This document shows, piece by piece, positions 18,071-23,610 of a DNA stretch of 38,062 nt. A program made the translations under genes and the position numbers. How positions within the stretch are numbered: position 1 is the first letter of the stretch; each line of letters opens with the position of its first letter. The DNA lies in assembly GCA_009781115.1 (NCBI GenBank), contig WQYT01000008.1:1-38062 (forward strand), given 5' to 3'. A model generated the notes under the pieces. It was not told the DNA's origin. It made no database searches and saw only the letters and a program-made list of their open reading frames with translations. This DNA is from Coriobacteriia bacterium. Lineage in GTDB: Bacteria > Actinomycetota > Coriobacteriia > WRKU01 > WQUG01.

Positions 18071-18787
18071 ATGAGTAGGGTTTTGAAAGCAATGTTGGTG
18101 TTTGGTGTATTAATTGTATCCGCATGTATTCTTGTTGCCTGCGGGAATAAGGCGCCCGTAAAGGCTACGAAGGATACAACGTCAAAAGAGACGTCGATCA
18201 CAGTCAGTACGGAAACCTCAGCCAACAGTGGGACCTCATCTGGTAGTGGAGCTTCGACGGGCGCGGAGACTTCAACTGGCAGCGGAGCTTCGACGGATGG
18301 GAATGGATCAAAAAATACTGGCAGTGCAAAAAGTACAGGTTCAAAGAAAAAGATCGCCTCTTCCTCACTTCTTACCGATGAGACAACCGGTAAAGGCGCT
18401 ATTTCTTTCGGGGACTCGGTTGAAAAGGTTAAGCGAGTGCTCGCTGGTTATCAGACAGATGCTGGCTCTTCGATAGGAGATTATAATAAAACGCAGTATG
18501 GTGTATTTTTTCTTTTCGGAGATGTGAATTACGTATTTGATACCAATGGCAAGCTTATCGAATATTACAGTGGTACAGGGTGGGGGTCTTTTGAAACATC
18601 AAAGGGTCTTAAGATCGGGGATCCGATCTCAAAGGCGATTAGCCTTTATGGCAAGAAATATTCTTTCAATAAAGGAAATGAGGATGATCTCCCAAGTTAT
18701 ACGTTCACTTTTAAAGGGACTTATTTGCGAGTCGAGGTTGATCCCCAGTCAAAAGTCGATTCGATGACCTGCGGAGTCAGGCAATAG
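18071..18787 (+). CDS. Lipoprotein of a small paralogous family (1)
   Basis: Lipobox LVAC, Ser/Thr/Gly-rich linker, C-terminal domain LLTDETTGKGAISFGDSVEKVKRVLAGYQ. Confidence 0.75.
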   Translation: MSRVLKAMLVFGVLIVSACILVACGNKAPVKATKDTTSKETSITVSTETSANSGTSSGSGASTGAETSTGSGASTDGNGSKNTGSAKSTGSKKKIASSSLLTDETTGKGAISFGDSVEKVKRVLAGYQTDAGSSIGDYNKTQYGVFFLFGDVNYVFDTNGKLIEYYSGTGWGSFETSKGLKIGDPISKAISLYGKKYSFNKGNEDDLPSYTFTFKGTYLRVEVDPQSKVDSMTCGVRQ

Positions 18788-20009: not shown

Positions 20010-21113
20010 TTATTGCTTTGTGAGCAGGTACTCGTGCAGGTAGGGTGGGGCGAAGGCCAATTTGCCGTGGGCGACGGCTTTGACCATGCCGGCTATCAGG
20101 AGTCGCTCGCGATACTTTGAGGCGTAGCCAGCAGACACGCCGCCCAGGCGCTCCCTGATGGCGCCAAATTCGCTTACGCCTTCATCTTGAGTCATGGCAA
20201 AAAGGAAGTTGCGGTCCTCTGCTGAGAGCGCCTGGAAAAGCATGTCGTGGACATTCTTGAAAAGCTCGATCTTTGCCAGGTCAAGCGATTGTTGGACAAG
20301 CTTGCCGTCGATGGCCTCCGCATCACTCCTAAAAAGAAAGTATCCCAAAAGCTGGATCAGGTAGGGATAGCCTTCCGTTGCCGTTGCTGCTGAACGCAAC
20401 GCAGTTCCGGAGAACGTGCGTCCAGCCTGGCTGAAGGCCTGGTCAAAGGCGATCTCGACAGCTTTGGTGTCAATGCTTTCAAGCTCGACCCGGTAAGCGC
20501 GACGCAGGAAAGTCAGGACCTCATTGTTTAAGATGTCATTGACTGAACTGGGCAGGCCGGCCATGAGCAAGGCCACGTCGTATTCTTCACGCAGCAGATG
20601 CTGGTAAGTGACGGCGAACTCCCGCATATCCGGTGTTCCGTTGTGAACTTCATCGATCAGGAATACCGTTTTAATGCCTTTGTGCTTCAGCTCGTTCAGC
20701 ATGCTTGATAGCATGAACCTGAATCCATGGACTTCTTTATCAGCCTTCTTTGTTAAACCCAGTGAGAACCCCAAAGCTCCAGCGGAAAAACCCTGCACTT
20801 CATTAAAAGCTTTGCCCAGCCAGTTCTTGCCTGTGTTGCACCGGATAAACTCGTCAAGAATCTCAAGAAGCATCCCGTCATGTGCCGTAACGTCGATTAC
20901 TACCTGTTTGCTGGAGTCAAGGCTTGCATGAACATCAGAGAGAATAGCCGTTTTGCCTGAGCCCCTGATTCCGGTGATGATCGTGGTCCTGTGGGGATCA
21001 TAGGGGTCTGTCAGGCTTTGCAGGAAGTCGTTGATTATCAGTTCGCGCCCGATGAACTGCTTGGGGCGCCGCCCAAACTGGGGGTTAAAGGGGTTTGTTT
21101 TGTAAGTGGTCAT
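20010..21113 (-). CDS. AAA-family ATPase with C-terminal winged-helix-like region
   Basis: Walker A GIRGSGKTA; Walker B KTVFLIDEVHNG; C-terminal ERLGGVSAGYASKYRERLLIAGMV. Confidence 0.88.
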   Translation of the reverse strand: MTTYKTNPFNPQFGRRPKQFIGRELIINDFLQSLTDPYDPHRTTIITGIRGSGKTAILSDVHASLDSSKQVVIDVTAHDGMLLEILDEFIRCNTGKNWLGKAFNEVQGFSAGALGFSLGLTKKADKEVHGFRFMLSSMLNELKHKGIKTVFLIDEVHNGTPDMREFAVTYQHLLREEYDVALLMAGLPSSVNDILNNEVLTFLRRAYRVELESIDTKAVEIAFDQAFSQAGRTFSGTALRSAATATEGYPYLIQLLGYFLFRSDAEAIDGKLVQQSLDLAKIELFKNVHDMLFQALSAEDRNFLFAMTQDEGVSEFGAIRERLGGVSAGYASKYRERLLIAGMVKAVAHGKLAFAPPYLHEYLLTKQ

Positions 21114-21133
21114 TCTTCTGCGGCTCCTGGTGT

Positions 21134-21221
21134 TTTCGTATTTCAGAATTACTTTCGTATTTTACCATAGGGTTTCGTATTTCAGAATTTGTTTCGTATT
21201 TGGGTAGTGGCTTTCGTATTT
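21134..21221. repeat. Five-copy iteron-like array of TTTCGTATTT (revcomp AAATACGAAA)
   Basis: Copies at 21134, 21153, 21173, 21192, 21212; spacing 19/20/19/20 bp. Confidence 0.9.
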
Positions 21222-21264
21222 TGCTTACTGCTTGCGCCTGCCTGCGTTTTTGGCGCCAGGCTGA

Positions 21265-21310
21265 CGCAAAAAAGATTCCGCCACCGGGCTCTGCTGGTGG
21301 CGGAATTTTT
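21265..21310. terminator. Bidirectional terminator downstream of arcA
   Basis: aaaaaagattccgccacc...ggtggcggaattttt. Confidence 0.7.
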
Positions 21311-21377
21311 GCGGTGTGACCAGGGTGTGACGGGGAGGCCGGGATGCCCTCTCGTCATGCTTGTCGCAGTTGTCGCA

Positions 21378-22649
21378 CTAGGCGTCGCGCTGCAGGGGGC
21401 AGGCCATGGCGTGAGCGCCGCCGCGTCCGCGACCGAGCTCGGCCGAGGGCAGCTCGATGACTTCGATGCCGGCGCGCGTCAGCTCGGCGTTGATGTGCGT
21501 GTTGCGGTCGTAGGCGATGACCACGCCGGGCTCAAGGGCCAGGAGGTTGTTGCCGCTGTCCCACTGCTGGCGCTCACTCTCATAGCGGTCGGGACCGTTG
21601 TCGATGACCTGCAGGTCCGCAACGTCAAGCGCGCCAGCGACCACCTCCAGAAACGGCATGGTTTCCCGCACAACCCTGATCTCGCCGGAGCGATCCTCGG
21701 GATGCAGAGAAAAAGTCTCAATGCTGTCCACGATGGGACGGTAGGCGCAGGCGATGTCGCGCTCTGCCAGCGTGAACACGGCGTCGAGGTGCATCGCCGC
21801 GCGCGTCTTGGGCAGGTTTGCCACGATCACGCGGTCTGCGGCGCCCTGCGCAAACAGCGACCGTGCCACCTGCATGATGGCCTGGCACGAGGTCCGCGCG
21901 CTCAGGCCGATCGTGACGGTGCGATTGCCCGTGACCAGGATGTCGCCGCCCTCGACGGTCGCCTTGCCCCAGTGCTGCTCCGGATCGCCCCAGTAGGTGG
22001 TGATCTTTGCCTCCGTAAACGCGGGGTGGAACTGATAGATTGCCTTCATGAGCAAGGTCTCGCCGTGGCGCGCATGCCTCTGGAGCGGGTTCATGAACAT
22101 GCCATCATAGGCCCAGGCGGTGGTGTCGCGCGCATAAAGCATATTGGGGAGCGGATCGATCAGGTACTCGTTTTCGCCCGGGGTCGGGCGGATCATGCCC
22201 ATGGCGTTGCTGCGGTAACCCTGCGGGAGGTCGTCGACCGACAGGCCGCCAATCAGGTAGGTCGCCAGTGTTGGGGCGTCAAAGGTATTCAGGTCGCGGT
22301 GCACGCTCTCCGCAAAGCCGAGGCCGACATTGTTGACGGTGATGACGCGGTCAAGCAGCCAGTTACGGGCGTCGGGCACAAGCAGGGTTTCGCTCAGCAG
22401 CTGGTGTAGCTCAAGGACCTCAATGCCGCGGGAGGTCATCTCGGCGACGAACTGCGCGTGATCGCGCTTGGCCTGCTCGACCCAGGGCAGCTCATCAAAA
22501 AGCAGCACGCGGGCGTTGGTGGGAGTCAGGCGGGTCTGGGCAAGCCCCGGTGCGCACACGAGTACGCGGCGGAGCTTGCCGACCTCAGAATAAACGCCAA
22601 ACTGCGCGGATGTTTGAGTTGGGGTCAGTGTCGGTGTGGTCGAGGTCAT
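21378..22649 (-). CDS. arcA: Arginine deiminase homologue
   Basis: PNMLYARDTTAW, EGGDILVTGN, MHLDAVFT, ELGRGRGGAHAMACPLQRDA. Confidence 0.93.
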   Translation of the reverse strand: MTSTTPTLTPTQTSAQFGVYSEVGKLRRVLVCAPGLAQTRLTPTNARVLLFDELPWVEQAKRDHAQFVAEMTSRGIEVLELHQLLSETLLVPDARNWLLDRVITVNNVGLGFAESVHRDLNTFDAPTLATYLIGGLSVDDLPQGYRSNAMGMIRPTPGENEYLIDPLPNMLYARDTTAWAYDGMFMNPLQRHARHGETLLMKAIYQFHPAFTEAKITTYWGDPEQHWGKATVEGGDILVTGNRTVTIGLSARTSCQAIMQVARSLFAQGAADRVIVANLPKTRAAMHLDAVFTLAERDIACAYRPIVDSIETFSLHPEDRSGEIRVVRETMPFLEVVAGALDVADLQVIDNGPDRYESERQQWDSGNNLLALEPGVVIAYDRNTHINAELTRAGIEVIELPSAELGRGRGGAHAMACPLQRDA

Positions 22650-23376: not shown

Positions 23377-23578
23377 TCACTTATCTGACGCAGTGAGCGG
23401 CGTAGAGCGGTACTGATTTGATAGCTCCCTCTTTGCCGAAGTTCTTTCGCGAACATCAGCATGCGGCTCAAGATCACTGGGATCAGCGCGATAGAGTGCG
23501 GTGAGTAAGCCCACATCAAGCAGATAGAGTTTAAAGTAAGTTTGCTTTCTTTCGCTGAAGTTGTATCCTGTATCTGAG
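23377..23578 (-). pseudogene. Fragment of a DUF4143 domain, opposite strand
   Basis: SDTGYNFSERKQTYFKLYLLDVGLLTALYRADPSDLE. Confidence 0.55.
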
Positions 23579-23610
23579 CAATGATGGCGTATCAGAGAAA
23601 GGGCAGCGAC

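Follow-up and report, generated by a model that had tools for sequence, protein, structure and literature searches.

Helically phased direct-repeat arrays precede a family of bacterial winged-helix ATPases and may serve as their private operators

Results

The repeat array and its gene neighbourhood

Five exact copies of the 10-mer AAATACGAAA lie on the minus strand of a Coriobacteriia genome, directly upstream of a stand-alone ATPase gene, and comparable arrays precede nearly all homologues of that gene. The array, this near-universal recurrence, the phasing, the private repeat words, the conserved position and the fold of the encoded protein were all computed here. In our judgement, the array is probably the operator of the ATPase gene that follows it, a site at which the ATPase would bind cooperatively, oligomerize and regulate its own expression, most likely by repression. 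Such arrays are undescribed in the literature searched, which did not extend to most subscription papers. The parts are known in kind, namely a winged-helix regulator, a direct-repeat operator and a STAND-like ATPase; what is new, as far as that literature goes, is that private, helically phased arrays accompany an entire ATPase family.

The window, by which we mean the entire 38,062-nucleotide stretch of DNA that was analysed, reads in the direction of the gene as an arginine deiminase gene, a hairpin with a T-run, the array, a Shine-Dalgarno site and the ATPase start codon at 21113 (Table 1). The array ends 20 bp from this ATG, in agreement with the initial annotation. Because the hairpin and T-run separate it from the preceding arginine deiminase gene, the ATPase gene would require its own promoter, and the array region is the only space available for one, such that occupation of the array would block or modulate the ATPase's own transcription. 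The candidate sigma-70 promoter inside the array is the top-scoring candidate of the window, itself a weak one. Overlap between promoter and array is predicted in most homologue loci, with a scoring that is biased by the A-rich repeats. Elsewhere in the window, a weak, isolated DUF4143 match (23470-23601, E 6e-4, below the family cut-off) is possibly a decayed ATPase gene.

The initial annotation had described five exact copies of TTTCGTATTT spaced 19/20/19/20 bp apart, and recomputation returns the same starts and the same spacing (20/19/20/19 in gene direction), with no further exact copy in the window and a single additional match, at 18529, when up to one mismatch is allowed. The CAGAATT that it had noticed in two of the intervals belongs to the 19-bp ones, which read CAAATTCTG and GTAATTCTG on the gene strand. 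The array is thereby laid out as two 19-bp pairs joined by AATTCT-containing spacers and one leading unit; the two 20-bp spacers contain no CAGAATT and have no common sequence. No paired units were found elsewhere in the host assembly (1.98 Mb, ~88% complete) with up to three mismatches allowed. An array like this is far from anything expected by chance, and its exact 10-mers weigh much more heavily than the generic periodicity score described below, by which the window array reaches only p=0.045 because variable spacer fills half of each period.

Table 1. Features of the window and repeat arrays upstream of homologous ATPase genes
Feature	Locus or source	Position	Strand	Sequence or evidence
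ATPase gene, 367 aa	window	20010..21113	-	AAA_22/AAA_16/ATPase_2 domain and C-terminal winged helix
Shine-Dalgarno site	window	21124..21128	-	AGGAG, 10 nt before ATG, between array and start
Unit 5, nearest gene	window	21134..21143	-	AAATACGAAA, exact
Unit 4	window	21153..21162	-	AAATACGAAA, exact; 19 bp from unit 5 across spacer GTAATTCTG
Candidate sigma-70 promoter	window	21159..21187	-	TTCTGA-17-TAAAAT, inside array; consensus scoring only, weak
Unit 3	window	21173..21182	-	AAATACGAAA, exact
Unit 2	window	21192..21201	-	AAATACGAAA, exact; 19 bp from unit 3 across spacer CAAATTCTG
Unit 1, farthest from gene	window	21212..21221	-	AAATACGAAA, exact
Hairpin and T-run, putative terminator	window	21270..21312	-	GATTCCGCCACC..GGTGGCGGAATTTTT; read from sequence
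Arginine deiminase gene, upstream neighbour	window	21378..22649	-	Pfam ADI, E=2e-116
Homologue array	L005			AAGTACAAAA x6
Homologue array	L006			AACTAAAACT x8, near-perfect tandem
Homologue array	L011			ACTTGAATAN x10
Homologue array	L037			TTCTTCTAAG x7
Homologue array	L040			ACTTAGAACT x9
Homologue array	L041, L053, L059, L062			AGGAAAAAA at 9/10 bp
Homologue array	L073			TTGCTATATC
Plasmid homologue array	Arthrobacter			GACTCACA; read by eye, unscored against shuffles
Plasmid homologue array	Pseudobutyrivibrio			AATACTAAAG x7; read by eye, unscored against shuffles
Plasmid homologue array	Bacillus subtilis			CTATAAACT; read by eye, unscored against shuffles
Plasmid homologue array	Protochlamydia			GTATAAACG; read by eye, unscored against shuffles

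Domain architecture of the ATPase

The AlphaFold2 model of the window ATPase (pLDDT 84, pTM 0.79) is composed of a P-loop domain, a helical lid and a C-terminal winged helix (residues 298-354 by secondary structure), and so contains the winged-helix-like C-terminal region that had been suggested at the outset. The recognition helix is predicted at approximately residues 328-341, and a sensor domain is absent. Foldseek ranks 2FNA and 2QEN first and second (E 2e-13 and 3e-12); ranks 3-9 in the PDB are Cdc6/Orc1 structures, including DNA-bound ones, with which the AAA and winged-helix fold is shared. The Walker A (GIRGSGKT) and Walker B (VFLIDEV, hhhhDE) motifs are present, and G48, R50, G51, G53, K54, T55, D154 and E155 are invariant among 13 sequences. 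STAND NTPases of the SSO1545/MNS kind carry an N-terminal hhGR motif and a GxP motif in the lid region. These are matched in the window ATPase by FIGRE, with G22 and R23 invariant, and by GYP, with G248 invariant and P250 nearly so (13 sequences). Among Pfam families, AAA_22 matches the window ATPase above its cut-off, ATPase_2 matches 13 of 13 members (P0001 below its cut-off, at 24.4 of 33.2 bits), nSTAND_NTPase5 matches 10 of 13 at E<=0.01, and ORC-CDC6-like gives a weak sequence match in four of the 13 seed members. On this model, the window ATPase is a minimal version of an SSO1545/STAND-like protein, ending in a winged helix. Assignment to a known anti-phage defence system was considered and rejected, the PADLOC models giving only weak P-loop matches (best E 5.5e-4) and the NCBIfam models nothing better than DS41_1 at 25.5 of 370 bits, likewise a weak P-loop match.

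Recurrence and phasing of the arrays

We gathered 89 ATPase homologues, of which most come from Coriobacteriia, some are close orthologues and as many as five share a genome. Of 150 Coriobacteriia genomes, 47 carry the family, with a maximum of five copies; the figure for the Actinomycetota genomes drawn, Coriobacteriia counted in, is 37 of 347. Periodicity was scored over the last 150 bp before the start codon as matches at lags 9-11 and 18-22, relative to dinucleotide shuffles; the lags were picked after the first arrays had been seen, and identical lags were used for the shuffles and for the controls, which were 153 other genes taken from 20 stretches of 20 kb in the same genomes. Start codons of homologues were set by a simple rule and may be a few codons off. 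A significant direct-repeat array of ~10- or ~20-bp period (p<=0.05) precedes 82 of the 89 homologues versus 6 of the 153 control genes; at p<=0.01 these numbers are 71 and 3, and a strong score (>=22 of 30) is reached by 54 homologues and by no control. The seven homologues without a significant array by this score include a fragment and several distant members. The initial annotation had held that homologous loci lacking the array would refute its proposal, and that outcome did not materialize, as the 82 periodic arrays stand at the equivalent place. It remains conceivable in principle that the repeats are neutral tandem duplications left in intergenic DNA, and some arrays, such as AACTAAAACT x8, are indeed near-perfect tandem repeats; however, the recurrence at homologues versus controls refutes this as a general account, and the window units are exact though half of the spacers vary, with exact units kept in a sister species as well. 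We give this explanation practically no credence.

Pooled over 73 non-redundant upstream regions, the autocorrelation has peaks at 9-10, 19-20, 28-30 and 38/40 bp and very little signal elsewhere. The helical phasing that the initial annotation had inferred from a single array extends to these loci, with a period of about one helical turn. Three spacing habits occur: constant 9, alternating 9/10 and constant 10. Repeat units are oriented with the gene direction wherever compared, and the homologue arrays stop at the Shine-Dalgarno site, as operators do. A ~10-bp phasing, together with the AAAA found in many words, would also be expected of phased A-tracts that curve promoter DNA without any specific protein. 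Curved DNA is rejected because many of the words have no A-tract (TTGAATNNNN, TTCTTCTAAG, ACTTAGAACT, TTGCTATATC and GACTCACA); in addition, the conservation of words among orthologues goes further than A content, and arrays of this sort are missing from control genes, leaving this explanation highly improbable.

Some loci depart from the simple layout. At L017 (2686-2986), two tandem arrays stand before one ATPase gene, TTGAAANNNN x6 at 10 bp followed by two AAATACGAAA at 19 bp, and the former could be that of a neighbouring gene or of one that has been lost. L018 has a second ATPase (ORF at ~4313, AAA_14-like by sequence) preceded by CGTCATTTCGTGCA repeats. Facing pairs of homologues ~2.6 kb apart, with different arrays, occur at L054, L055, L057, L092, L094 and L095, in several genomes of one Coriobacteriia genus. 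Distant Actinomycete homologues (L115, L120 and L122) have no long arrays and show short dyad-like sites near the start, for example CTTTATT..AATAAAG.

Private words and their inheritance

The repeat word differs between homologues. It is shared by 58% of homologue pairs at >=60% protein identity, by 14% at 50-60% and by 2-3% below 50%. The initial annotation had proposed looking for arrays of the window word before homologous ATPases across Coriobacteriia; a search of relatives for AAATACGAAA arrays yielded only the sister genome G002, and misses homologue arrays because each homologue has its own word. Units of ATACGAAA at 19-20 bp are kept before two homologues that come from other taxa and share 70-74% identity with the window protein, and the upstream region outside these units does not align. 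Within the host genome, neither the window array nor the single paralogue array tested (that of C101, TTGAATNNNN, which occurs once) turns up anywhere but at its own gene. In G002, three exact AAATACGAAA units come after an arginine deiminase orthologue (80% identity) and lead directly into what is left of a deleted ATPase, its final codons (KLAFTPPYMREYLLSKQ*); the spacer GTAATTCTG between units 4 and 5 recurs in that genome (C30) as GTAATTCTC. Since this array and ATPase remnant occupy the matching site, the array and the gene most likely predate the divergence of the two species, as judged from sequence comparison.

Were every ATPase to read its own word, similar words would be expected to go with similar recognition helices more than with similarity elsewhere in the protein. 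A partial Mantel test that controls for the remainder of the protein finds word similarity to rise with recognition-helix identity (r 0.16, permutation p 0.001). When 70 sliding windows across the whole protein are compared, the strongest is columns 326-335, the first half of the recognition helix; the per-column correlation is highest just before and in the helix, with columns 318, 323 and 330 in the top five, and averages 0.042 over columns 323-334 versus -0.002 in the AAA domain. The helix class DYAQKYR is paired with the word GGAAAA in six of seven cases, a word seen in none elsewhere, and GYASKYR with ATACGAA and SWxxKYR with GTATAA form further clean classes. The correlation is small and partly phylogenetic, the members of a class being related. 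In a nearest-neighbour test, the AAA domain equalled or outperformed the recognition helix as a predictor of the word, which is why we do not claim the helix-word link as proof.

That last result, a single test, and the absence of binding data leave room for a different host regulator that binds the arrays, with the ATPase merely its target gene. The two arrays tested are nonetheless confined to their own genes, the word follows the ATPase across taxa, and no conserved partner gene is seen, the neighbours varying between loci. Moreover, paralogues within one genome have different words, so a separate cognate regulator would be needed for each ATPase. We consider a host regulator unlikely. Self-binding by the ATPase, which is inferred mainly from the private words, the unique target sites and co-inheritance, is likely but not shown; the choice of the ATPase over a partner as the binder is supported, again without being shown, by co-inheritance and the weak recognition-helix signal.

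Plasmid and viral relatives

Homologues occur on 96 plasmid records, and these relatives are publicly annotated mostly as 'ATP-binding protein' only. None was found in the 50,697 phage records searched, and viral contigs hold distant homologues only. On a Bacillus subtilis plasmid (L211, CP123774), the gene immediately preceding the homologue encodes an AbiEii/AbiGii-type nucleotidyltransferase, which may point to a toxin-antitoxin-like context. The plasmid records, the patchy and multi-copy distribution of the family and the resemblance of the fold to Cdc6/Orc1 would accord with an iteron- or centromere-like site, the ATPase then serving the replication or partition of a mobile element, whether extant or decayed. 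Against this, the window copy lies between chromosomal genes, after arginine deiminase, at a site common to the sister species; up to five copies occur per genome; several plasmid homologues adjoin ordinary par or transfer genes; no homologue was found in the phage records searched; and the ends of the arrays at the Shine-Dalgarno site are operator-like. Nor does the window copy qualify as an iteron-controlled replicon, for which an autonomous element beside a Rep gene would be expected. We regard this origin of the arrays as quite improbable.

Discussion

Proposed mechanism and significance

Under the operator model, ATPase subunits would line up head to tail on the direct repeats, at intervals of about one or two helical turns, and assemble over the promoter and 5' leader into a cooperative oligomer that probably depends on ATP state. 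The oligomer would regulate the ATPase gene itself, most likely by repression; the nucleotide state may set the oligomer and hence the output. The initial annotation had suggested that the ATPase or a partner binds along one face of the DNA for autoregulation, a suggestion supported by the recurrence of the arrays, the winged helix and the period of about one turn. Binding by the ATPase itself, the oligomeric and nucleotide-controlled character of that binding, and repression are inferences made in the absence of binding or expression data. Word and protein would travel and diverge together, and, as each family member has its own word, we propose that paralogues in one genome do not cross-regulate.

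Autoregulation alone leaves the purpose of the protein unexplained. A broader and more doubtful possibility is that widespread, unrecognized bacterial SSO1545-like ATPases polymerize on private phased arrays as self-contained units whose recognition code has radiated into dozens of insulated specificities, with an oligomer that acts beyond autorepression; it might, for example, sense an invader or the state of the cell and then release from the array or spread from it.

These arrays give a large multi-copy family, labelled just 'ATP-binding protein' in annotation, a molecular activity that can be tested and a ready DNA substrate for each member. The pairs of word and recognition helix are a natural data set for decoding the winged-helix DNA code and could yield many insulated regulator-operator pairs, and the family offers a bacterial system in which to study the assembly of SSO1545-like and Cdc6-like ATPases on DNA.

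Comparison with known systems

The best full-chain structural matches of the window ATPase, with TM scores of 0.69-0.71, are SSO1545 (2FNA) and PABY2304 (2QEN), archaeal STAND/MNS proteins that likewise combine a P-loop ATPase with a C-terminal winged helix. They are only 14-16% identical to it in sequence and archaeal rather than bacterial, and to our knowledge their function is likewise unknown. Promoter-binding switch proteins are known among STAND-class ATPases, including MalT, which binds direct repeats cooperatively, and IniR. The latter has an SSO1545-like ATPase and binds the iniBAC promoter (PMC5760070). Both MalT and IniR act on other operons and combine large sensor domains with LuxR-type DNA-binding ends, whereas the window ATPase lacks a sensor domain and the only target found for it is its own gene.

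The fold of an AAA ATPase with a winged helix is also common to Cdc6/Orc1, initiators that bind repeated DNA sites. The bacterial family differs from them in its many members per genome and in a sequence match that is only weak; context and copy number argue against an origin function.

The DUF4143/AAA_14 ATPases (PF13635) are likewise stand-alone and multi-copy, with 21 in the host genome (G000, 1.98 Mb). Members in that genome and its family (for example L162, L169, L179 and L186) often have their own palindromic or direct-repeat upstream sites. Strong upstream direct repeats were found for 9 of the 16 examined, from the same taxonomic family, versus 10% of control genes. DUF4143 is a different family, and its operators look palindromic or long-period in contrast to the 10-bp phased arrays described here, but the presence of these upstream repeats suggests that private operators may be a wider habit of stand-alone ATPases.
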